A stretch of DNA of 64,000 nucleotides from Clostridia bacterium (GCA_017442265.1 JAFSAC010000008.1:1-64000), one strand, 5' to 3'; counted from the stretch's first letter, positions 16,517-27,122 are shown. Numbers and translations are program-made. Notes: generated from the sequence alone by a model not told the origin.

Positions 16517-16530
16517 AAAAAATCCCCCTC
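16517..16530. terminator. left arm of a split bidirectional terminator
   Basis: AAAAAATCCCCCTC, four bases after the XRE stop. Its exact 14-base complement GAGGGGGATTTTTT lies at 27064-27077, next to the end of the convergent ABC permease gene. Together they would form a standard A6-stem-T7 bidirectional terminator; about 10.5 kb now separates the arms. Confidence 0.8.
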
Positions 16531-16602
16531 GGATAGGCTACTTCTCATAAGGATGTTTTGAATATCCTATGAAATCAGCCGATTGACGAGTGCTAAGAAG
16601 AT

Positions 16603-16638
16603 GACAGTATAGCAAAACGCTATGCTGTCTTTTCTTTT
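16603..16638 (+). terminator. terminator at left end of the element
   Basis: Stem GACAGTATAGC / GCTATGCTGTC (one mismatch, AAAAC loop, 16603-16629) followed by TTTTCTTTTT. It may stop chromosomal read-through from the GH43/XRE side, now that the native terminator is split. Confidence 0.75.
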
Positions 16639-16694
16639 TATCAACAAATTTCGCAACTTTTCCAAAAACACTTTTAATTCTATTGTTATTGGGG

Positions 16695-16908
16695 TATAAT
16701 ACATAAGCTACGCAAACTTAATACACGCAGATCAGGTATTTTTCTCTATGGGGATACTATGCCTTTTTTCTGTAATACTATTTTTGAATTTGGCAAAAAT
16801 GCAAATTCCATTAAGTAGTATTACAGCGAATGCTTGATCTATTTAAGTTTGCGTAGCGGCAACGGGGTTTGCGTTTTTCGGTGCGTGGCTTCGGTCACGC
16901 ACTTTTTT
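16695..16908 (+). ncRNA. candidate structured RNA with nested inverted repeats
   Basis: TATAAT at 16695-16700, then four nested pairs: 16707-16721 with 16843-16857 (15 bp perfect, GCTACGCAAACTTAA); GATCA 16730-16734 with TGATC 16835-16839; 16770-16780 with 16816-16826 (11 bp perfect, CTGTAATACTA); GAATTTG 16786-16792 with CAAATTC 16802-16808. A terminator (GTGCGTG 16881-16887 / CACGCAC 16896-16902, T6) closes it. I see no ORF with a ribosome site. It could be a small RNA or a MITE-like sequence. Bases 16531-16694 between the element end and this unit hold only the terminator at 16603 and no gene. Confidence 0.55.
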
Positions 16909-16919
16909 ATTATTAGTTT

Positions 16920-16945
16920 AAAACTTTTTCGGTTTTCACATCGTC
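16920..16945 (+). promoter_or_regulatory. ECF-type promoter upstream of the sigma operon
   Basis: AAAAC (16920-16924), 17 bases, CGTC (16942-16945) followed by TTATAAG. The same arrangement and spacing recurs at 18953-18978 before the next lipoprotein gene. AAC / CGTC elements are typical of promoters used by ECF sigma factors, so the sigma gene is probably autoregulated. Confidence 0.65.
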
Positions 16946-16969
16946 TTATAAGTAAGAGAGGTGAAAATA

Positions 16970-17122
16970 ATGAATAAGTTCGAAATTTTCTTAAAGCAGA
17001 TTTTAACTGTCATTTTCAGGGAGATGCCATTTAACAGGCAAAAAGCTGATGAAAGTTTAGAAAAAATAAAGTCATTTCAAAAGGCAACTTTGGGGGAAAA
17101 TAACGATGGACATAATAAATAA
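16970..17122 (+). CDS. 50-residue small protein coupled to the sigma factor
   Basis: Predicted 50 aa, beginning MNKFEIFLKQILTVIF. GAGAGGTG lies 7 bases before the ATG. The stop is at 17120-17122, so it overlaps the sigma gene by 17 bases in another frame. The N-terminal half is amphipathic/hydrophobic, the rest charged (RQKADESLEKIKSFQK). The arrangement suggests translational coupling, or a small regulator of the sigma factor. Family not recognised. Confidence 0.6.
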   Translation: MNKFEIFLKQILTVIFREMPFNRQKADESLEKIKSFQKATLGENNDGHNK

Positions 17123-18905
17123 TGTGATAAGGGCGATGGATGGTGACCAAGAAGCCATTAGCGAATTATACTATACTACATATCCAAAACTCCGTGCAGT
17201 TGCCGTTAGCATTTTAAAAAATGAAGCTGATGCTGATGATATTGTTCAAGACTCCTACATAAAAGCATTTTCAAGTTTACATCAATTAGATAATGCAAAA
17301 AAATTTGAGCCTTGGCTTTGCAGAATTGTATCAAATAAGTGTAAAGATTATTTGAAAAAGAATAAGCCTATTTTATTTTCTGCGCAAGATAATGAAGAAA
17401 ACGATGAGCCTATTGAGTGGTCAATTGAGGACGAGTCCAAGGAATATGATCCGGAAGAAGTATTACTTTCAGAGGACACAAGAAAGCAAATTATGGACTT
17501 GCTTAATTCTCTGCCCGATGACCAAAGAATATGTTTGGTTTATCATGTAGTTCAAGAAATGAAAATTTCCGAAATTGCGGAATTGCTTGAAGTATCAGAG
17601 AACACCGTAAAAAGTAGAATCAATTATGCGAAATCCAAAATGAAATCTAAAATCAACGAGTTGGAGAAAAAAGGTGTCAAATTGCGTGGTTTCGCAGGTT
17701 TTGCTCTGTTCCCACTTATCAGACACTTGTTTGCTTCTCAATCTACTTCTGTTCCGCCCATTTCGGCAGAAATAGTTGCAGGCTCAACGGCCGGTGTAGC
17801 AGGAACAACTGCCGCCATATCGGAAACGGTAGCATCATCTTCTTCGGCTGTTATAGGCGAAACAGCAAAAACGGTTGTAGGACAGGCGGTACAGCATTTA
17901 GGTTTAAAAATTATATCGGGAGTGGTTGCAGTGGCTATAGCGGCAACTACCATTACAGGTATAATTAACCCTAAACTTTTATATCCAATAGATGTTTTCA
18001 ACATTATTGAAGAAGCACCGATTAAAGTTATTGAGAAATTTGAAGATGCTTTTAATGATGGCGAATTGGACGAAATGGTTGAATGTTTGGAGCCGAACAT
18101 TCAAAAAGAAATTAATGAATATAGGTATGAAGCCGATGGCTTTATAGGTATATTCTTAAATACAGATTCTAACAAAATAGTAAAAATTGCTTCTTCGTTG
18201 TTAGGTGCAAAATGTGATATCATAGTCGATAAAAAGAACAGTGATATAAAATCCGATGTGGCTATCCTTAAAACCAAAATCAAGTTTTCTATTCTTGGCA
18301 AAGATGATGATAGCGAAGAAACTGTAACTATGAAAAAAGTTGACGGAAAATGGTATATAGCTCATTCTGAACAAGCGTTAGAAGTTGATCCGAAGAATAA
18401 TGATAAGGCTATTGAATTATACGAAAGTTTATTGCGAAAGGGAGTTACTGAAAACGATCTTGAAATTGCTTATTATGCATATATTGATTTGAACAATGAT
18501 GGGGTTTATGAACTGTTAGTATCAGATGCTCAAGGAACTTCTGATACTTGGTCTACTGGTGAGTTGTTTACTTACAAGAACGCTGAACTATATTTTTGCG
18601 GTCGAACAAACTCAAGATATGATTATTTTTACATTGTTAATAATAGTTATCTTTTAGGAAGACATCGTATGGGAAATCAGTTTATTTCTCTTAATGAAAC
18701 AATATCGACAACAAACTATCATTGGGACGAAACAATGCAAAGAAACGACCTCGCCATTTCTTATAATGATGGTGAATGGGAATACCTCACAAACGAAGAA
18801 TTTGAATTTTACCAAGCTATGCCGGATAGCAATTCCGTGGAAGATGCATTTATTAAAACTGCCGAACCCATTATTCTCAAACAAAATTCTTTTGCAGAGA
18901 ATTAA
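17106..18905 (+). CDS. ECF sigma factor fused to a membrane segment and extracytoplasmic domain
   Basis: Predicted 599 aa. Sigma region 2 about residues 5-85 (DADDIVQDSYIKAF, then KKFEPWLCRIVSNKCKDYL); region 4 about 125-185 (DDQRICLVYHVVQ, SEIAELLEVSENTVKSRI). Residues 210-262 are Ser/Thr/Ala/Gly-rich; a membrane segment lies at about 266-287 (LKIISGVVAVAIAATTITGII). The last 310 residues should be outside: an NTF2-like stretch (KVIEKFEDAFNDGELDEMVECL) then an acidic Asp-rich segment (YAYIDLNNDGVYELLVSD). Typical ECF sigmas are about 180 aa, so sensor and sigma seem joined in one chain. GGGGG precedes the ATG. Release may need proteolysis; this is inference. Confidence 0.9.
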   Translation: MDIINNVIRAMDGDQEAISELYYTTYPKLRAVAVSILKNEADADDIVQDSYIKAFSSLHQLDNAKKFEPWLCRIVSNKCKDYLKKNKPILFSAQDNEENDEPIEWSIEDESKEYDPEEVLLSEDTRKQIMDLLNSLPDDQRICLVYHVVQEMKISEIAELLEVSENTVKSRINYAKSKMKSKINELEKKGVKLRGFAGFALFPLIRHLFASQSTSVPPISAEIVAGSTAGVAGTTAAISETVASSSSAVIGETAKTVVGQAVQHLGLKIISGVVAVAIAATTITGIINPKLLYPIDVFNIIEEAPIKVIEKFEDAFNDGELDEMVECLEPNIQKEINEYRYEADGFIGIFLNTDSNKIVKIASSLLGAKCDIIVDKKNSDIKSDVAILKTKIKFSILGKDDDSEETVTMKKVDGKWYIAHSEQALEVDPKNNDKAIELYESLLRKGVTENDLEIAYYAYIDLNNDGVYELLVSDAQGTSDTWSTGELFTYKNAELYFCGRTNSRYDYFYIVNNSYLLGRHRMGNQFISLNETISTTNYHWDETMQRNDLAISYNDGEWEYLTNEEFEFYQAMPDSNSVEDAFIKTAEPIILKQNSFAEN

Positions 18906-18952
18906 CGAGATTAGCACAGTAAAGAAAAAATTTAAATATTTTTATAATTTTT

Positions 18953-18978
18953 AAAACCTTTTTCAAAACCAAATCGTC
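18953..18978 (+). promoter_or_regulatory. ECF-type promoter before the lipoprotein gene
   Basis: AAAAC (18953-18957), 17 bases, CGTC (18975-18978) followed by TATAAAG, matching the motif before the sigma operon in both elements and in spacing. It predicts that the sigma factor drives the lipoprotein gene at 19028. Confidence 0.65.
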
Positions 18979-19027
18979 TATAAAGTGTAACAAGAAATTG
19001 TTAACATCAAAAAAAGGATGGTTTGTT

Positions 19028-20050
19028 ATGAAAAAGACCTTTAAAAAACTAACCGCATTGCTATTTGTTTTTGTATTGATTTTCTCATTTGCAGGATGTG
19101 AGAGTGATACTGGTTTGGATTCCAAAGAGTCCGAATATGCGGAAACAGTCGAAAATCTTCAACGTGATGAAAGCTCTGAAGAACTAACTGTTGATGATGA
19201 ATCAACTGACATTGACACAAGCACCACAATATCAACCGAAGAAAAAGTAATCAAAGAAGAGCCTACCGAAGAGAAAACAGCAACTACACAAAAATCTCCG
19301 GTTGAAACGGAAGATACTACTTCTAACACGGAATCCACACAAAAAAGCAGTGTTACAACATCGTCTAAGGAAACAAACAAGAAAACGGAAGTTACACAAT
19401 CAAAAGAGAATAACGAGTCAGAAACCATTACTTCAAGTCCTACCGACAATACTACAACATCTGCGCCCATCGTTACGATACCAACGTTCACAAAAACGGT
19501 ATATGTATATGAACACAAAAATATCGAAACAGCGACAGGATCAGACGACTATTATGCTTGGCTAAATGTTTATTGCATCAACGATAACACTTCCAATAAA
19601 AACGATTTCCAAAACGAATTTAAAAATGTATTTGGATATATGCCAACAGCAAAAATTCAAAGCAAATATATCGGAGAATTCTTAGTTGATGGATATGAAG
19701 GGGTGCAAAAAATCTATCAATATACTATTGAAGATAGCACATACCCTTTCATTGTAGATGAGTTTTATGTGGTAAAAAAGAAAATTTGTGCTGACGGTTC
19801 GGGGTGGTGTGGTTTTCCTGTTCCATGTTCGATGGATAATATGGATAATTCTCAACGAGTTCAAAGTCTGTTGTTAGAGATGCGCGAGATGTTTTGTGAG
19901 TGGTATGGTGTTGACTACTCGTATATAACAGAAAACGCCGATAAATTTATGGCAAATATGATAAGCGAAGCTGGTCTTATGAGAACCGAGGATGGTCGTG
20001 TGCTTAATGTTGTTTACCGTTACATTAGAGGAATTAATATGCCACTATGA
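19028..20050 (+). CDS. lipoprotein with long Thr/Ser/Glu linker
   Basis: Predicted 340 aa. ATG 19028 with AAGGATGG about 8 bases upstream; an earlier in-frame start lacks a site. Lipobox FSFAGC. Residues about 25-165 are a low-complexity linker rich in Thr, Ser, Glu and Lys that could span the wall. The C-terminal 175 residues form a compact domain (YVYEHKNIETATGSDDYY, then a conserved-looking CADGSGWCGFPVPC with three cysteines). Family not recognised. It follows the sigma gene and has the same ECF-type promoter, so it is the likely main target or partner of that sigma factor. Confidence 0.8.
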   Translation: MKKTFKKLTALLFVFVLIFSFAGCESDTGLDSKESEYAETVENLQRDESSEELTVDDESTDIDTSTTISTEEKVIKEEPTEEKTATTQKSPVETEDTTSNTESTQKSSVTTSSKETNKKTEVTQSKENNESETITSSPTDNTTTSAPIVTIPTFTKTVYVYEHKNIETATGSDDYYAWLNVYCINDNTSNKNDFQNEFKNVFGYMPTAKIQSKYIGEFLVDGYEGVQKIYQYTIEDSTYPFIVDEFYVVKKKICADGSGWCGFPVPCSMDNMDNSQRVQSLLLEMREMFCEWYGVDYSYITENADKFMANMISEAGLMRTEDGRVLNVVYRYIRGINMPL

Positions 20051-20157
20051 TTTTCTCATTAAATTTAATATAACGCATACGAAAATGACAATTGGGTTGT
20101 GGATAATATAAATTCCCTAAAAATAAACGATTAAAAAGTTAGAAAGGTTTGATTATA

Positions 20158-20784
20158 ATGAAAAATTTTATTTGTGCTCTTTGGGTTTGTTTGTTATTGT
20201 TTAGTTTGTGTGCTTGTGGAAAACAGGAGAATGAAAAAGATGGATCGCCTACAAGTAGTACTAATCAACCGGCGGTTGCACAGAGCAATGTTGGTGATGA
20301 AACACTTCAATATCCCGCTAAGAATGATGAATTCGAATATAAGGTTTATGAAACTTATATTGAAATTACAAAATATATCGGTTCCGAGTCAATAGTAACT
20401 GTTCCAACTACAATAGAAAATTTGCCGGTTAAATCCATTAGTGACTGGTCGCTTGAAGGGTGCCAAAACATAACGAGTATAATCTTACCTGATGGACTTG
20501 AAGAAATTGGATACAAGGCCTTTGCGGATTGTAGCGCCCTGAAAGAAATCAACATTCCTAATAGTGTGAAGGAAATTGGAGAAAGAGCTTTTCATGGCTG
20601 TGTATCTCTTGTTGAACTCACTATTCCAAAAAGTGTAACCAAAATTGGAGAGAAAGCGGTTGGTTGGTCTGGTGGTATTGGTACATATAAGCAAACGGAT
20701 GTTATTGTAAAGGTCTATAAAGCTTCGTACGCTGTTCAGTGGGTTCTAGATAATTATATTCAATATTATGAGGTGTTAGGATAA
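20158..20784 (+). CDS. BspA-type leucine-rich-repeat lipoprotein
   Basis: Predicted 208 aa. ATG 20158 has AGAAAGG 10 bases upstream. Lipobox LCACG. Residues about 75-175 hold BspA/LRR_5 repeats (ITSIILPDGLEEIGYKAFADCSALKEI, INIPNSVKEIGERAFHGC, LTIPKSVTKIGEKA). Such repeats mediate surface binding to host or other cells. The short array (about three repeats) ends with VYKASYAVQWVLDN, a usual C-terminal cap in this family. Located between two other envelope genes in the element. Confidence 0.85.
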   Translation: MKNFICALWVCLLLFSLCACGKQENEKDGSPTSSTNQPAVAQSNVGDETLQYPAKNDEFEYKVYETYIEITKYIGSESIVTVPTTIENLPVKSISDWSLEGCQNITSIILPDGLEEIGYKAFADCSALKEINIPNSVKEIGERAFHGCVSLVELTIPKSVTKIGEKAVGWSGGIGTYKQTDVIVKVYKASYAVQWVLDNYIQYYEVLG

Positions 20785-20790
20785 GTTCGT

Positions 20791-22362
20791 ATGGGAAAGA
20801 AAATGTTTTTCAAAATCGCAAGTATAAGAGAAGCCACTAAATTGAAGAAAAAATCCATTGCCCTTTGTATTGTGCAGATGCTTGTGGGGTTATTCGTTAT
20901 ACCATATGTCGTTTGTATGTTGACATTAGTATTGTGCTCGGGTGAGGTGTCAAATGTTTGGACGGTTACACAGTATGTAATTTACTTCTTTCTTGTTGCA
21001 CTATATTGGTATGCATGTAATATCCGAAAATGGTCTCATTCATATATGTTGGATTACACAAAAAGGACATTGGAAAACCAAGGGGCTTACTGCCCTCGTT
21101 GTTTTTCTAGAATGAAGACTTCTCTAGAATCCTTTGATTACGAAGAGAAAATCGGCGAAGAAACTATAAAAACAGTATACTCGGACGGTTATGTTTCGTA
21201 TGATGCTAAGGTGATCATGGAAAAGCGTAAAGAGAAGTTGCCGCATTTTGTTTGTACCGGAAAGAAATGTGCACTTGAAACGAAACCGCAAAAATCCAGT
21301 GCTGATTCATACAAAGTTAGATGGCAAGTGAAAAACAATTACTCTTTTTTTGAATTGCCAAGGGGGATGCGTAATACATACCGCTTGATTCTCGGCGACA
21401 CAAACAGTGCTTGTAAATCTTCTATGATGAGAAAGTTTCATACAGGATTGCATCGTGCTCTTATCGGTATTATTTTTGTAGTTTTACTAATTGTGTCAAA
21501 GATTAACAACTATGGTGTAACGGGAAAATCTTTTGAATTGCTTTGGGGGACAACCGATGCAATCATTACATTTGCTGTTATGACCACCATTCTAGTAATC
21601 GCTTATGTTATAGCGGAGATTATCATCAAAAGGAAAAGTGATAAAATCTGTTCATCAGAAGTTTTCGCTCAAGATAAGCAAAAGCGGCACAAACAATTGG
21701 CAGAAACTTATTTTGCAAAGTGTAACGGCGAGTATGTAATTCAATACCGCAAAAAAGCCATAAGAAAAGCTCGTAAAGAAAAAGATCCTATGGTAGAAAA
21801 GCTTCCAAAATACGATTATCAAGGTGAAAGAAAACTCTTAAAAGACAAGCAACACTATGTTGACAATTTGTTGAAAATGCTCGCATGCTTCTTAAACGAA
21901 ACGGAACTTAAGCATAGTACAAATTTTCTTAATGGAACCTATATCGTTGAAGCTCTTACAAAGCATCTCGTTCCTAAAAAGTATTCTTTTATCGTCGATG
22001 AGGGAACGGGGTATTTAGCTATGTCCACATATCTTCGATATGGTTTATATGAAGAACATATCGAGAATATTGTAACGGATTGGTTAAAGGAAAATGAAAA
22101 CCATACATTTCCAATATTCGTTGATCGAGATCCTTGTGGCGTATATGTGTCAGCGGGAATCCCTTTTACTCTTGATTATCAATTGAAAGATAGCGATAAA
22201 AACGAATTTGAGAATACTATTGGTCGTTATATGAAATGGATCGCCACTTTGCAGGATATAATTGCCGATGAGTTTGGAGAAGAGGAGGATTTTTCGGAAA
22301 CTCCTGACATCAGTAAGCAACTACTTGAGCAGGCAGCAAATCAGCTAAAACAAAAGAATTAA
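20791..22362 (+). CDS. multi-span membrane protein with four-cysteine zinc-like motif
   Basis: Predicted 523 aa, beginning 6 bases after the LRR gene, so probably co-transcribed. Two membrane segments near the N-terminus (about 24-46 and 60-80), then a cytoplasmic stretch with CPRC (about 100) and CTGKKC (about 153), which could bind a metal; two more membrane segments about 228-248 and 258-280; then a 240-residue charged C-terminal domain, presumably cytoplasmic. No catalytic motif or family recognised. Low GC like its neighbours. Role in the element unknown. Confidence 0.75.
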   Translation: MGKKMFFKIASIREATKLKKKSIALCIVQMLVGLFVIPYVVCMLTLVLCSGEVSNVWTVTQYVIYFFLVALYWYACNIRKWSHSYMLDYTKRTLENQGAYCPRCFSRMKTSLESFDYEEKIGEETIKTVYSDGYVSYDAKVIMEKRKEKLPHFVCTGKKCALETKPQKSSADSYKVRWQVKNNYSFFELPRGMRNTYRLILGDTNSACKSSMMRKFHTGLHRALIGIIFVVLLIVSKINNYGVTGKSFELLWGTTDAIITFAVMTTILVIAYVIAEIIIKRKSDKICSSEVFAQDKQKRHKQLAETYFAKCNGEYVIQYRKKAIRKARKEKDPMVEKLPKYDYQGERKLLKDKQHYVDNLLKMLACFLNETELKHSTNFLNGTYIVEALTKHLVPKKYSFIVDEGTGYLAMSTYLRYGLYEEHIENIVTDWLKENENHTFPIFVDRDPCGVYVSAGIPFTLDYQLKDSDKNEFENTIGRYMKWIATLQDIIADEFGEEEDFSETPDISKQLLEQAANQLKQKN

Positions 22363-22478
22363 ATTAAAAGTGTTTGGTGTTATTGTTGTCTTCGGTTTAC
22401 CAGCTGTATTTACTATCGCAAAATTCTTTAATGAAGATAGTTTTCAATAATTGAAATATTTGCTGGACTTACGAAAAC

Positions 22479-22506
22479 CTTTGTAGTATGTTGTTGTACT
22501 GCAAAG
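22479..22506 (+). promoter_or_regulatory. hairpin touching the ribosome site of the 32-aa ORF
   Basis: CTTTGTAGTA (22479-22488) pairs with TACTGCAAAG (22497-22506), 10 bp with one G-U, 8-base loop. The 3' arm includes the first bases of the AAAGGAGGTG ribosome site (22503-22512). It could limit access to that site. The rest of 22363-22517 shows no gene I can support. Confidence 0.5.
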
Positions 22507-22517
22507 GAGGTGCTCAT

Positions 22518-22616
22518 ATGGCACAAAAACTAAATAAATTAAAAAAGAGCGACTTTATAATGGTAACCGCCGTTGTGAAGTCGCTCTTCTCTTATGTGGG
22601 GGTGAGATTAAAATGA
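22518..22616 (+). CDS. 32-residue small ORF at the head of the DUF6809/CAP operon
   Basis: Predicted 32 aa (MAQKLNKLKKSDFIMVTAVV...), with a very strong AAAGGAGGTG site 6 bases upstream. Its TGA overlaps the next gene's ATG (ATGA). The ORF contains an 11-bp perfect inverted repeat (AAGAGCGACTT 22545-22555 / 22578-22588) that could form when ribosomes are absent. It may be a leader peptide or a small membrane-associated protein. Either reading fits; conservation would decide. Confidence 0.55.
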   Translation: MAQKLNKLKKSDFIMVTAVVKSLFSYVGVRLK

Positions 22617-22897
22617 CAACACTTGAAGATTTATATTACGGCAACATCAGTCCGCACGAAAGATATATCAAGCGAGGAACGAGAGTAGACAAGCTCGTTA
22701 AGCTGATATGCAAAAACGAGGAAGAATTAAATTCTACCCTCACAGAGAAGCAAATAGAAACCTTTGAAAAGTTCAAGGACTGCACAAGTGAGCTGTCCTG
22801 CATTACCGAGCGTGAAGCGTTCAATTCGGGATTTATCCTTGCCACTCGCATCATGGTGGAAGTGATGCAAGGCTTGGAGGAGGTCGAGGATATATGA
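22613..22897 (+). CDS. DUF6809-like small protein (element copy)
   Basis: Predicted 94 aa. Opens MTTLEDLYYGNISPHERYI, and shares the same pattern (LxDLYYGNIxPxERYI...L...L...F.....E.SxI.ExExFxxGFxLxxxMxxEV) with the chromosomal 94-aa gene at 56481-56765. These match the small family I know as DUF6809, common in Firmicute mobile and accessory regions, function unknown. Mostly helical, cytoplasmic. Translationally coupled on both sides (ATGA overlaps). Confidence 0.75.
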   Translation: MTTLEDLYYGNISPHERYIKRGTRVDKLVKLICKNEEELNSTLTEKQIETFEKFKDCTSELSCITEREAFNSGFILATRIMVEVMQGLEEVEDI

Positions 22898-23745
22898 AGA
22901 AAATTATTATCCTTCTTCTCTGCTGTGGGGTACTCGTGAGTGTGGTAGGATGCGGTGGCAACACCGCACTGCCGTCTAGCGAGAGTCCACCGACGACGGT
23001 ATCGGAAAAGATAATAACGGAAACTCCAAGCGAAATAACACCGCCTGTGGCGGCGGTAGAGCCGACAGAGGAAGAAAAAGAACCTCTCCCCACCGAGAGC
23101 AAGCCTCAGGCAACCGAACCAACTGTGACCGCCATAGAGCCGACAACAAAGGCACAGTCAACGGAAGAACCCAAGCCTACGTTACGGACAAAACCAGCCG
23201 AGCCATCGGTGGCGGAAATCACCGAAGCTAAGAAAGAAACACCGACGAAAACTGAAGAATCGCAAGAGGAAATATATGTAGGCATACAATGGTCGGAGGT
23301 CGATCCTGCAGATATCGAAAAGTTGGTGGTAGAAAAAATAAATGCCTACCGCATAGCACAAGGTGATACGGCAGCTACGATACTCCCTGGACTGACCGAG
23401 GTGGCTCGGTACAGAGTAACCGAACTCACAACAAACTTTGAGCATCGCGGAGAACAACATGTCAGCACGGAACTTAAATATGGACAGTATGTTGACCTTG
23501 TTCCTTATGGTATGCTTGATGAAAGTTATTACAAAGGATATAGTCGCGAAGCCATCGGAATGGGTGACTGGTTCGGTACTGCGGAAAGTATGTCTGACCG
23601 AATCGCAGACGGATTTTATCATAGCAAAAAACATTGGGCATATGTCGGTAGTTCCAAAAATCCATACATCGCCGTAGGCGTAACAAAAGCAAACGGCAAA
23701 TGGTATGTCTGCTTCTGTATGAGTGAAGAAAACTACGGCGGATAA
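22894..23745 (+). CDS. CAP-like (SCP/PR1) domain lipoprotein
   Basis: Predicted 283 aa. ATG overlaps the stop of the DUF6809-like gene. Lipobox VVGC, then a 110-residue Pro/Thr/Glu-rich linker, then a C-terminal domain of about 140 residues resembling the bacterial CAP fold (VVEKINAYRIAQG, RVTELTTNFEHRG, FYHSKKHWAYVGSSKNPYIAVGV, WYVCFCM). CAP proteins are secreted and bind lipids or ligands; enzymatic activity is rare. It is the third putative lipoprotein in the element. Confidence 0.8.
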   Translation: MKKIIILLLCCGVLVSVVGCGGNTALPSSESPPTTVSEKIITETPSEITPPVAAVEPTEEEKEPLPTESKPQATEPTVTAIEPTTKAQSTEEPKPTLRTKPAEPSVAEITEAKKETPTKTEESQEEIYVGIQWSEVDPADIEKLVVEKINAYRIAQGDTAATILPGLTEVARYRVTELTTNFEHRGEQHVSTELKYGQYVDLVPYGMLDESYYKGYSREAIGMGDWFGTAESMSDRIADGFYHSKKHWAYVGSSKNPYIAVGVTKANGKWYVCFCMSEENYGG

Positions 23746-23762
23746 AAACAAAATAAGGCGAT

Positions 23763-23809
23763 TTAAGGCAGGTGTATGCTCAGACGAGTAAACACCCGCC
23801 TTAAGTTTT
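23763..23809 (+). terminator. terminator after the CAP lipoprotein gene
   Basis: TTAAGGCAGGTGT (23763-23775) pairs with ACACCCGCCTTAA (23792-23804), one mismatch in 13, followed by GTTTTT. It ends the small-ORF/DUF6809/CAP operon. Confidence 0.8.
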
Positions 23810-23900
23810 TAAACGCCACACAGTGCAAAAAACACCAAAAATCGCCCCAGATTTCCCCTTTTTAGAACACACTCTCGAATGAAATTTAGAAATAACTTCT

Positions 23901-23933
23901 ATCGCAAGTTTAAAGAACTTGCGATATTTTTTT
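23901..23933 (+). terminator. terminator-like hairpin
   Basis: ATCGCAAGTT / AACTTGCGAT, 10 bp perfect, TAAAG loop (23901-23925), followed by ATTTTTTT. No gene lies directly before it after the CAP terminator, so it may end an unannotated transcript or insulate the repeat region. Confidence 0.7.
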
Positions 23934-23949
23934 ACAAAAAACGGTCTGC

Positions 23950-24194
23950 AAAACGCTAATTTCTCGACGTTATATGAAGGGGCAATTTTTTCGTGAAAAT
24001 GGGGCTACAAAACAGTAATTCTTGGACGATAGGTAGAGGGGAAAAGTTGTTTTTTATGTAAGTGAGAGGTATAAGTGTAAACAATTTATGAATTGTTTTG
24101 AAAAACCACCTTTCAAAACCGCGTTTTCAGGACGCTATATAGAGGGATAAAAATACTGATAGAAAATGCTGCTTTTGGACACTAAGTAGAGGAA
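23950..24194 (+). repeat. four iteron-like direct repeats upstream of the winged-helix gene
   Basis: Four imperfect 32-33-base copies begin at 23950, 24009, 24115 and 24163. Common pattern: AAAAC, then TT.T.GGACG, TA, (A/G).TAGAGGG. Starts are 59, 106 and 48 bases apart, so they are not a regular array. They fill most of the 480-base gap before the winged-helix protein and look like binding sites for it or for a replication/recombination protein. Confidence 0.6.
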
Positions 24195-24225
24195 CAAATT
24201 TACATAACTGAAAGGAGTGTTAAAA

Positions 24226-24552
24226 ATGAACACAACTAATGAAAAATCTTTAGTAAAGGAGATGGCAAAACACAAGAACTTTTTTATGGTATCAAATCGG
24301 ATATTTGAATTTGACTTAAAGCCGAAAGATTTCACAGTATACTGTTGCCTTGTTCGTCACTGTGATAACGAAGATCATTCCTGCTTCCCTTCACGGAAGC
24401 TCATTGCAACGGAATGTGGAATTGATAAAAAGACGGTGGATGCAGCTATGAAGAATCTCGAAGACCGTGGTCTTGTAAAGAAGGTTCATCGCAAACATTC
24501 TGACGGCAGTAAACGAAGCAATTTATATTACGTCACTCGACTTTTTGAGTAG
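24226..24552 (+). CDS. winged helix-turn-helix DNA-binding protein
   Basis: Predicted 108 aa. ATG 24226 with AAAGGAGTG 6 bases upstream. A wHTH fold covers residues 30-105: FDLKPKDFTVYCCLVRHCD, CFPSRKLIATECGIDKKTVDAAMKNLEDRGLVKKV, a recognition helix and wing as in plasmid or phage replication-initiator/regulator proteins of Firmicutes. The direct repeats just upstream are likely targets. It may regulate recombination or replication of the element. Confidence 0.8.
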   Translation: MNTTNEKSLVKEMAKHKNFFMVSNRIFEFDLKPKDFTVYCCLVRHCDNEDHSCFPSRKLIATECGIDKKTVDAAMKNLEDRGLVKKVHRKHSDGSKRSNLYYVTRLFE

Positions 24553-24989
24553 CCTCTAAAACGTATGGGTGTAGTGTGAGAACTTCTTATCATTAACTAA
24601 ACCCATAGAACTAAACTAAGTTTCTACAACAGAAGATAAAGAATATATAGCAGTGATAAAGCCGAAGAAATATCGATGTTGATTGAGAGGATGCAGCGTA
24701 AAAAATGCTTTTTTCTTTTCTGCTGTAAGGGTAAAAGCAGAGATTTTGTATGTGCGAAAAAAAGCAGGAGAAAGGAGCAACCCCTATTGTTCGGGGATGC
24801 TCCGATCAGGACGGACGGCAATGCCGACCGTTAGGGCGTTTGCGGGATTTCGAAACGATTTTTGCAGGGTTGCAACCACGACGGTTGCTTGCCTGTTTTT
24901 TGCTTGTTTACGACCGCGTAGTCCCCTCAAATGCCGAATGTTACGGCATTTTGACAGGGGTTGCTGATTATTAAATGAAAGGAAAAACA
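24553..24989 (+). other. structured non-coding region, oriT-like
   Basis: No supportable gene. The second half is rich in palindromes: GGAGCA/TGCTCC with CCCC/GGGG (24774-24803), GCAACC/GGTTGC (24872-24888), and a larger hairpin CCCCT + AATGCCG / CGGCATT + AGGGG (24923-24960). GC is higher than the surrounding element. From memory this resembles the DNA before mobilisation genes of gut Firmicute integrative elements, so a relict transfer origin is possible, but no relaxase is encoded here. Confidence 0.4.
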
Positions 24990-25232
24990 ATGAATAATAA
25001 AATTAAAGAAATTTGTATACCGGTGAAGAAAGAATATGATTTTAAGGTTGCCAAAGCAATCCGCCGCCGACAGAGAATAAAAATTGATGATGGTAAACTG
25101 ATTACCGAAACAGGATATACCGTTGGCGGTATGAGGTATAAGGTTAATTCTATTTTTGATATAGTGAACTCTCCGAAAAGTGAAGAAACATTAAAAAATC
25201 TAATGGCAAAAGAAATAAATAATGTTTCATAA
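24990..25232 (+). CDS. small basic protein upstream of the recombinase
   Basis: Predicted 80 aa. ATG 24990 has AAAGGA 6 bases upstream; an earlier in-frame ATG lies on that site. A hydrophilic, basic protein (KKEYDFKVAKAIRRRQRIKIDDGK) with a C-terminal NSIFDIVNSPKSEETLKNLM segment. Small genes of this kind are usual beside serine recombinases of integrative elements. I do not assign a family; an excision or regulatory role is possible. Downstream (25233-25338) I see only imperfect inverted repeats. Confidence 0.65.
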   Translation: MNNKIKEICIPVKKEYDFKVAKAIRRRQRIKIDDGKLITETGYTVGGMRYKVNSIFDIVNSPKSEETLKNLMAKEINNVS

Positions 25233-25338
25233 TAGCTGGACTTTGAGACCGCTTGGGAGTATTGTGTTGATGCAGAAATATTAAACTGCACAAATGCACT
25301 CTCAATCGGTTTGACACTTGAAAGGAGATTATGAATTT

Positions 25339-26979
25339 ATGTCAAACCAAACAGAAAAAAGAATAACTGCGTTATACTGCAGACTCTCTCAGGAAGATGA
25401 GAAAAAGGGCGATAGCGATAGTATCGTCAACCAAAAAGAAATGCTTCAAAGATATGCCAAACAAAACGGATTTACCAACACGCAAGTTTTTGTGGACGAC
25501 GGATACTCAGGTGTAAGTTTTAACCGCCCCGGCTTTCAAAGTTTACTTGAACTAATGGAGAACGGAAAGGTTGAAACGCTTATTACTAAAGACCTGTCCC
25601 GTCTCGGTAGAAACTATCTTGAGGTAGGTCAGTATACCGAAATAATGTTTCCAAGATGGAACGTTCGGTATATTGCCGTTAACGACAATTACGATTCACT
25701 TTACACCGAAGGCAACGAACTTGCTCCCTTCAAAAATTTATTCAACGAATGGTATGCAAGAGATACAAGTAAGAAAATCCGTGCGGTACTAAAAGCAAAA
25801 GCGGAACGCGGCGAACGCATTGGAACGTCAATTCCTTACGGATACAAACGTGATCCGGAACACAAAGGTAGACTGCTTGTCAATGAAGAAACTGCGCCTA
25901 TCGTCCGAAGAATATTTGAACTGTGTGCGCAAGGTATGGGGCCAAAGAATATCGGCAACGTGTTACGAGATGAAAAGATTTTTAAACCAACTTTCTACCG
26001 ATATCAATCAGATGGTTACTACGGAACGATCACTGACACTGACGTGCCTTACGGTTGGTCATCACAAACGATATCTAAGATACTCGGAAATGAAATTTAT
26101 CTTGGTCATACCATTAACTGCAAAACTCGTGTGGTGTCTTTCAAAGATAAGCGTACAGTTGAAGTTCCCAAGAACGAACAGTACCGTTTTGAAAATACCC
26201 ACGAAGCAATCATTGATCAGGAAACCTGGGATGCAGTTCAAAAGGTTCGTCAAGGCAAACGCCGCCGCAATAGTATGGGTGAGATTGATAAGTACAGTGG
26301 ATTATTATACTGCGCTGACTGTGGCTCAAAGTTATACTTTGTGCGAGGAAAATCGATCACGCCTGATGCTTACAACTTCATCTGCAGTCGGTATCGCAAA
26401 CATGTTGGTGAACAATTATGCTCCGCTCACCGTATTCGTGAAATGGCTTTGGATGAAATCGTTCTTGAAGAGATACGCTGTATAACCTACTATGCGAGAA
26501 CCAAAACCAAAGAGTTTGTTCAGGTCATAAACAACAAAAGTTCCTCTGAAAACAAGAGAGAGCTTACGGCAAAAACGATTGAACTCAGTAGAAAAGAAAA
26601 TCGTAATGATGATCTGAACGCATTATTCAAAAGACTGTATGAGGATAATGTTCTCGGCAAGGTTACCAACGAACAATTTCGTATGTTGTCTGAAGGATAT
26701 AATGCAGAGCAAAAAGAAATTGCAGAACAGATACCTGTCCTGCAAAAACAAATTGAAGAATTAAAAGCGGCAACTGTAAATATAGAAAAGTTCATTGCAA
26801 TAGCAAATAAGTATACCGATTTGCAAGAGCTCACCGCAGAGGTGTTACGCACCTTCGTAGCGAAGATTGTTATTCACGAACGTACAACCAAGTGGGCAAA
26901 AACATCTGAGCAGCAAATCGATATCTACTTCCGCTATATCGGTTACCTTGAAGAAACAAATACGAAACAAGCCGTATAA
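25339..26979 (+). CDS. large serine recombinase (TndX/TnpX-like)
   Basis: Predicted 546 aa. ATG 25339, about 10 bases after GGAG. N-terminal resolvase domain with the nucleophile Ser in YCRLSQEDE and KDLSRLGRNY; recombinase domain (YGYKRDPE, then SQTISKILGNEIYLGHTI); zinc-ribbon CADCGSKLYF ... FICSRYRKH ... CSAHRI; a long coiled-coil (about 400-510). Such enzymes excise and integrate elements by 2-base staggered cuts, without extensive homology. It sits next to the right end, transcribed outward, as in Tn4451/Tn5397-type elements. All catalytic parts look intact. Confidence 0.95.
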   Translation: MSNQTEKRITALYCRLSQEDEKKGDSDSIVNQKEMLQRYAKQNGFTNTQVFVDDGYSGVSFNRPGFQSLLELMENGKVETLITKDLSRLGRNYLEVGQYTEIMFPRWNVRYIAVNDNYDSLYTEGNELAPFKNLFNEWYARDTSKKIRAVLKAKAERGERIGTSIPYGYKRDPEHKGRLLVNEETAPIVRRIFELCAQGMGPKNIGNVLRDEKIFKPTFYRYQSDGYYGTITDTDVPYGWSSQTISKILGNEIYLGHTINCKTRVVSFKDKRTVEVPKNEQYRFENTHEAIIDQETWDAVQKVRQGKRRRNSMGEIDKYSGLLYCADCGSKLYFVRGKSITPDAYNFICSRYRKHVGEQLCSAHRIREMALDEIVLEEIRCITYYARTKTKEFVQVINNKSSSENKRELTAKTIELSRKENRNDDLNALFKRLYEDNVLGKVTNEQFRMLSEGYNAEQKEIAEQIPVLQKQIEELKAATVNIEKFIAIANKYTDLQELTAEVLRTFVAKIVIHERTTKWAKTSEQQIDIYFRYIGYLEETNTKQAV

Positions 26980-26986
26980 AAGGAAA

Positions 26987-27062
26987 GGACGGACAGTCTA
27001 AACTGTCCGTCCAACTCCACGCCACCGCCTTACGCAAAGATATCCTTATAACAACTTGCGTA
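26987..27062 (+). other. right end of the element
   Basis: A perfect 10-bp hairpin GGACGGACAG / CTGTCCGTCC (26987-27012) follows the recombinase stop, without a T-run. Then ATCCTTAT (27042-27049), the inverse of the left-end 8-mer, within a TACGCAA/TTGCGTA (27031/27056) flanked palindrome. These are the likely recombinase half-sites. Confidence 0.6.
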
Positions 27063-27063
27063 T

Positions 27064-27077
27064 GAGGGGGATTTTTT
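27064..27077. terminator. right arm of the split bidirectional terminator
   Basis: GAGGGGGATTTTTT, exactly complementary to the arm at 16517-16530. It lies 45 bases past the end of the convergent ABC permease operon. Confidence 0.8.
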
Positions 27078-27122
27078 TATCTGTGTCTATTCATTCCGTC
27101 TTTACACGCGGCAACGCCTGCT

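Follow-up and report, generated by a model that had tools for sequence, protein, structure and literature searches.

A predicted membrane-tethered extracytoplasmic function sigma factor with paired matching candidate promoters on a probable clostridial mobile element

A few membrane-tethered sigma factors of the extracytoplasmic function (ECF) type have been characterised outside the Clostridia (ECF52 and IutY). ECF52 (SCO4117 of Streptomyces), reported only from Actinobacteria, fuses an ECF sigma factor to transmembrane and extracytoplasmic parts with a zinc finger, a proline-rich stretch and a carbohydrate-binding domain; positive autoregulation is putative and proteolytic activation has been proposed (PMC5826349). 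IutY of Pseudomonas putida (ECF243) joins a sigma factor and a membrane-bound regulator in one polypeptide, has an anti-sigma domain, belongs to an iron-starvation cell-surface signalling system and has been shown to be activated by regulated intramembrane proteolysis (PMC8999054). In ECF41, ECF56, ECF205 and ECF294 a SnoaL-like sensory extension at the C terminus replaces the anti-sigma factor and follows the sigma domains in a soluble protein (PMC8999054). Here we describe a predicted membrane-tethered ECF sigma factor and two matching putative promoters, P1 and P2, in a 64,000-nucleotide stretch (the window) of the genome of a gut Clostridia bacterium (GCA_017442265.1 JAFSAC010000008.1:1-64000; Table 1). 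An earlier reading of the same DNA (the original prediction) had proposed a possibly transferable regulon in which a sigma factor with a surface domain controls itself and a lipoprotein. Comparison with related genomes leads us to consider it probable that the locus is a self-contained, autoregulated ECF switch of the one-component kind, tethered to the membrane and governing surface proteins.

The window sigma factor shares with ECF52 the fusion to transmembrane and extracytoplasmic parts and, putatively, positive autoregulation and activation by proteolysis. It differs from ECF52 in having one helix, a clostridial host, an ectodomain that changes from one close relative to another and a proposed local regulon of surface-protein genes; no zinc-finger or carbohydrate-binding-module Pfam match was found in the full protein or the ectodomain. 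With IutY it has in common the single polypeptide and, as proposed here, the mode of activation, but a family scan of the window protein found no fused anti-sigma domain. The first part of the ectodomain may be NTF2/SnoaL-like, as in the ECF41 type, but here a membrane helix separates the extension from the sigma domains, and all ectodomain Pfam matches are sub-threshold (CaMKII_AD, E 0.2; DUF4878, E 0.7). The system is best called a case of the already known tethered ECF one-component regulation, here in a clostridial sigma clade with local surface regulons, and the leader RNA upstream of P1 may be its more novel part. This RNA, the recurrence of a small coupled open reading frame (ORF) and the presence of the arrangement across the order were absent from the original prediction.

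The tethered sigma factor and its clade

Regions 2 and 4 of the sigma factor match above the cut-off with no match to region 3, as in ECF (group IV) proteins, and TIGR02937 (sigma70-ECF) scores 93.9 bits (cut-off 42.9). We searched 394 genomes of the order and 398 of the family and obtained many relatives at about 30-45% identity; no relative of the full protein turned up in viral contigs, nor in plasmids or phages at a coverage above 80% of its length. The closer relatives are mostly open frames of 470-1300 amino acids, nearly all of which have a single helix predicted within residues 245-340. The long proteins form one clade, with support 100/99, when the sigma domain is placed in a maximum-likelihood tree; in this clade 49 of the 50 rows are scored as fused; the remaining row (L039, 472 amino acids) is also long and falls below the helix threshold. 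The order of parts in the clade is region 4, immediately after it a hydrophobic KLYxLAPIPFLxxLL-like motif shared by most members (near KLYSLAPIPFLLWLL; KLRGFAGFALFPLIRHLF in the window), a low-complexity linker in which Ala, Ser, Gly and Thr are frequent, the helix and a variable ectodomain. Because the sigma domains are necessarily cytoplasmic and there is one helix, the approximately 310 residues that follow it should lie outside. For the surface domain of the original prediction, support comes from this one predicted helix, whose position is conserved throughout a well-supported clade. Short proteins in relatives resemble the first part of the ectodomain. With AlphaFold2, models of the ectodomain (from two rows) and of the lipoprotein domain (from a single sequence) reached a mean predicted local distance difference test score of 34, and fold searches were therefore not based on them.

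The sigma gene is preceded by an ORF of 50 amino acids, in which the substitutions in three pairwise comparisons of close loci fall 6/4/26 by codon position, the pattern of a translated gene. Coupled ORFs of 41-67 amino acids are likewise found upstream of fused sigma factors in several clades. We rejected the idea that all of them form one protein family, as shuffled sequences outscored the window protein in a profile test and no clade could be linked significantly to another with hhalign. The 50-residue protein has no predicted helix and no match to any family, anti-sigma families included, so the locus departs from the canonical layout with an adjacent membrane anti-sigma gene. We regard the ORF as a candidate regulator, no more.

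We propose that a small amount of the sigma factor is kept at the membrane, as the topology suggests, its core domains in the cytoplasm and its sensor domain outside, with the conserved hydrophobic motif, the flexible linker and one membrane helix between them. A signal at the ectodomain would free the sigma part or otherwise activate it, most probably through regulated membrane proteolysis, by analogy with IutY and ECF52. The tether might instead work uncut, an outside signal altering the linker so that the sigma factor becomes accessible in the membrane, or the 50-residue protein might be an anti-sigma factor while the ectodomain only localises the complex. Activation without cutting is known for the soluble ECF41 extensions (PMC8999054), and both the recurrence of the small coupled ORF and its coding constraint in the window lineage would suit an anti-sigma role, whereas the failure to connect the small ORFs of different clades and the missing anti-sigma match argue against that role. 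Taken together, we consider these variants somewhat unlikely, and favor release of the sigma part from the membrane.

Paired promoters in the window and at distant loci

The original prediction had reported two AAAAC-17-CGTC elements, followed by TTATAAGT at P1 and by TATAAAGT at P2, and their coordinates, 17-nucleotide spacing and 3′ letters all proved correct (AAAACTTTTTCGGTTTTCACATCGTCTTATAAGT from 16920 and AAAACCTTTTTCAAAACCAAATCGTCTATAAAGT from 18953). P1 lies 5′ of the 50-residue ORF and the sigma gene, and P2 lies 5′ of the lipoprotein gene. The bare AAAAC-N17-CGTC pattern was rejected as evidence by itself, since its two occurrences in the window are at chance level (1.05 +/- 1.02 in shuffles, with two or more in 29 of 100 shuffles). 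The full shared sequence AAACYTTTT-N11-TCGTCTWWNAAGT, with up to three mismatches allowed, matches the window twice with no mismatch, compared with 0.02 matches expected. The search of the rest of the genome proposed with the original prediction gave the same picture: at the same tolerance the extended motif is found in the 1.47-Mb, 84%-complete assembly at P1 and P2 only, and the reversed control is not found at all. The spacer letters differ between P1 and P2, which indicates that one is not a recent duplicate of the other. Judged by their sequence, the two conserved sites fit the bipartite AAC/CGTC-type promoter expected of ECF sigma factors.

Both sites are conserved in L012, a locus of a goat-colon Clostridia metagenome-assembled genome (MAG; G751), which is 92% identical to the window from 16648 to the end of its contig; codon changes in the sigma domain between the two are 53 silent to 18 not silent. 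P1 is also kept in L013, an 82%-identical locus from a buffalo-caecum MAG (G752), with 87.6% identity over 16654-17852. We then scanned 1 kb upstream of 50 other sigma loci with a position weight matrix (PWM) built only from sites of the window lineage, with P values taken from shuffles of each sequence itself. Sites with P ≤ 0.02 were found at 11 of the 50 loci, where about one was expected, and at none of five unfused ECF genes in the same set. In G212 the sigma factor is only 39% identical, yet TTTAAATCTTTTTTTCGTTCCGGATCGTCTTATAAGT is found between the terminator of the same leader RNA and the operon, its -10 part identical to P1 over ATCGTCTTATAAGT; TGAACCTTTTTATGGTGTCATTCGTCTATTAAGT occupies the same place in G316, again between the terminator of this RNA and the operon. 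A genome scan of G391, which encodes four fused sigma factors, gave nine near matches against one in the control. Seven of the nine lie in the four fused-sigma loci, before the sigma operons or before adjacent genes for lipoproteins, a BspA-type lipoprotein and large secreted proteins. The other two are on a contig that has no sigma gene (L157, C76), where they stand before genes for surface proteins, possible regulon members elsewhere in that genome.

These results suggest that the activated sigma factor, with RNA polymerase, would act at P1 to raise transcription of its own operon, bypassing the leader terminator, and at P2 to drive the adjacent lipoprotein gene and probably the leucine-rich repeat (LRR) and 523-residue membrane protein genes after it. 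The autoregulation and lipoprotein control put forward originally are supported by conservation in independent relatives, beyond the likeness of two sites in one sequence.

Several observations weigh against this proposal. A P2-like site is absent from L013, and 39 of the 50 loci in the PWM scan have no significant site, which implies either that specificity differs among them or that the rule is not general. Over all ten scanned genomes there were 25 hits against 19 in the controls, with no excess outside G391 and the sigma loci, and several of the ten had been picked because the site was already seen there. In addition, the host assembly encodes a second ECF-like sigma factor (C66, 190 amino acids), in principle another candidate for reading P1 and P2. 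Promoters of many ECF groups resemble one another, with AAC at -35 and CGTC at -10, so the two sites could be genuine ECF promoters served by another host sigma factor while the tethered protein recognises something else. The sites, however, track fused sigma factors across distantly related genomes, within the fused-sigma loci, and occur in their own assembly nowhere but at P1 and P2, which makes reading by another sigma factor quite unlikely. That the likeness of P1 and P2 is due to chance or to a copied stretch, with ordinary promoters expressing both genes, is very improbable: the bare pattern is indeed at chance level, but the extended one is far above it, the surroundings of P1 are conserved in the genome with the 39%-identical sigma factor, and the differing spacers speak against copying. 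Recognition of both sites by the tethered sigma factor thus stays our preferred explanation.

The leader RNA

A structured RNA lies between the left edge of the block shared with the close relatives and P1, and its terminator ends 11 nucleotides before P1. Its folding energy is well below that of controls (minimum free energy z -8.4), and it is identical to the window at 204 of 206 positions in L012 and 193 of 205 in L013. No good -35 element was recognised for the probable vegetative -10 in front of it. The layout is that of the RCd22-abiF leader of Clostridioides difficile (RF03085), an experimentally studied case of read-through control (PMC12373285): SigA promoter, structured RNA, rho-independent terminator, short gap, ribosome-binding site and gene. 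The window RNA differs from RCd22-abiF by its closing stem, its pseudoknot and the great diversity of the genes behind it, and covariance models gave no match to RF03085 or to any other Rfam 15 family. The RNA may be among the anonymous candidates of a large human-microbiome RNA survey (PMC8040213).

A covariance model, grown from partial matches elsewhere, found copies (counted at the thresholds used; loci L084-L129 and L174-L184) in 86 of 250 genomes of the family. In the order, 101 of the 295 genomes sampled have the RNA, and they cover 61 of 149 genera. There are up to 11 copies per genome, sometimes in tandem (e.g., G588 C239, G298 C60 and G137 C48); two RNA-pattern scans of viral contigs found no copies. 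Three helices, the closing stem, the long pseudoknot and the hairpin of the terminator, are 96.3% paired across 49 aligned copies. They show 153 double-change cells, whereas shuffles give 31.7 and slid partners no more than 29. The model used for alignment did not include the closing stem, which is 94.8% paired. In 32 of 47 copies the terminator is followed within 45 nucleotides by the start of an ORF that has a ribosome-binding site, compared with 7.7% at random positions. Judging by names read from the sequence, not by family searches, these genes encode lipoproteins and BspA-type, short, AbrB-like and helix-turn-helix (HTH) proteins. A second copy in the host assembly (C18:26163-26308, L090) is followed, 17 nucleotides after its terminator, by the gene for a large BspA-type LRR surface protein. 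At L106, L114 and L124 the RNA stands directly before DNA-methyltransferase-like genes (DEFYTxYxxIxxE...CDDPExSNFxKYF, also read from sequence), perhaps a hint of a mobile or defence setting. The RNA is found at a minority of sigma loci (2 of 51 distant ones).

The role of the RNA is likely attenuation. A vegetative promoter would give basal transcription, most of which the leader terminator would stop before the sigma genes. It is possible, though we hold it only tentatively, that the whole is a two-layer switch, in which the pseudoknotted attenuator gates basal sigma transcription, the ectodomain is exchangeable and the released sigma factor drives itself and the local surface genes, and that the RNA family serves generally as a leader for surface genes and for genes gained by horizontal transfer, under a common cue.

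The probable element and the exchange of sensor and cargo

Carriage of the locus on a serine-recombinase element is well supported by the sequence. The recombinase gene lies at one end and the junction is site-specific: matched to a joined query, the flanks overlap by 6 bases, A(G/A)GAT, and when rejoined (left of ~16555 and right of ~27041) they fold into a single long hairpin, a bidirectional terminator (z -7.0), which fits an insertion in the terminator loop. The terminator halves lie at 16517-16554 and 27041-27080; a 20-base piece of the left half has a further copy in the assembly, at C14:37811-37830. As first proposed, the sigma factor, its likely target and three envelope genes (for the LRR lipoprotein, the 523-residue membrane protein and the CAP-type lipoprotein) lie inside; so does the recombinase. 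The mobile element of the original prediction stands as far as carriage is concerned, with its recombinase and flanks that rejoin to an intact terminator, but its mobility finds less support. No empty insertion site was found in a relative, the genus being represented by this genome only, and no relaxase or transfer genes of an integrative conjugative element were recognised among the element proteins scanned, so that the element may be mobilised by others or static. The likely target, the 340-residue lipoprotein, has no Pfam family match and is 94% identical in L012 over the 279 residues compared.

The similarity to L013 ends in the linker before the membrane helix, and the ectodomain there is entirely different (the protein has 750 amino acids). 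The genes 3′ of the sigma gene also differ, until 78 bases near the end of the last L013 gene match 22374-22451. Sensor and cargo have thus been replaced in full within edges that are conserved (17852-22451 against 6747-9640 of L013), which suggests cassette swapping of the sensor between otherwise ~88%-identical loci. The neighbours differ among the three loci as well: the recombinase is downstream in the window, a different one is upstream in L012, and none is seen on the 10.8-kb contig of L013. In the goat-colon relative (L167 2987-6257) the sigma cassette lies beside a different serine recombinase and a 62-residue excisionase-like protein. DUF6809 proteins are encoded near the cassette in both the window (22613-22897) and L013 (4809-5111, upstream of the sigma gene), on opposite sides.

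Table 1. Features of the locus, in window coordinates
Feature	Coordinates	Strand	Basis or remark
Probable mobile element, ~10.5 kb, in loop of bidirectional terminator	16555..27040	.	Ends placed within ~6 bases
TATAAT, probable -10 of vegetative promoter for leader RNA	16695..16700	+	Sequence; 7 nt before covariance-model RNA start
Structured leader RNA: closing stem, inner hairpin, pseudoknot, rho-independent terminator (16880-16908)	16707..16908	+	Fold, covariation
P1, putative ECF-type promoter of sigma operon: AAAAC-17-CGTC-TTATAAGT	16920..16953	+	Conserved in L012, L013, L026, L035
50-aa ORF, translationally coupled, overlaps sigma start by 17 nt	16970..17122	+	Codon-position pattern; recurrence upstream of fused sigmas
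Membrane-tethered ECF sigma factor, 599 aa	17106..18905	+	Sigma70_r2 E 5.8e-15; Sigma70_r4_2 E 1e-14; clade of fused sigmas
Single predicted transmembrane helix of sigma, ~residues 268-288	17907..17969	+	Hydropathy; linker alignment
Sigma ectodomain: possibly NTF2/SnoaL-like half and second half of unknown fold	17976..18902	+	Sub-threshold Pfam only; replaced in L013
P2, putative ECF-type promoter of lipoprotein gene: AAAAC-17-CGTC-TATAAAGT	18953..18986	+	Conserved in L012
340-aa lipoprotein, likely target gene	19028..20050	+	Signal peptide with lipobox FAGC read from sequence
LRR_5 (BspA-type) lipoprotein, probably same transcript as 340-aa lipoprotein	20158..20784	+	LRR_5 E 7e-22
523-aa membrane protein of unknown family	20791..22362	+	No Pfam family above cut-off
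Remnant of last L013 cargo gene (FGLPAVFTIAKFFNEDSFQ), conserved right edge of variable cargo	22374..22451	+	83% identity to L013 9563-9640
DUF6809 small protein	22613..22897	+	E 9.6e-27
Lipoprotein with weak CAP-like domain	22894..23745	+	CAP E 0.0096, below curated cut-off
HTH_36 winged-helix protein	24217..24552	+	E 2e-13
Large serine recombinase (Resolvase, Recombinase, zinc ribbon, DUF4368)	25339..26979	+	Domain matches

The leader RNA is a separate lead, as a covarying, pseudoknotted RNA that is missing from Rfam 15 and present in about one third of the sampled genomes of the order. If the proposed switch is real, a large clade of such tethered sigma factors in gut Clostridia, whose matching promoters precede surface genes nearby, would give these hard-to-study bacteria a simple and portable outside-to-inside switch. 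Its sensor would vary while its output promoter can still be recognised, and one gene and one promoter could be moved into a laboratory host.

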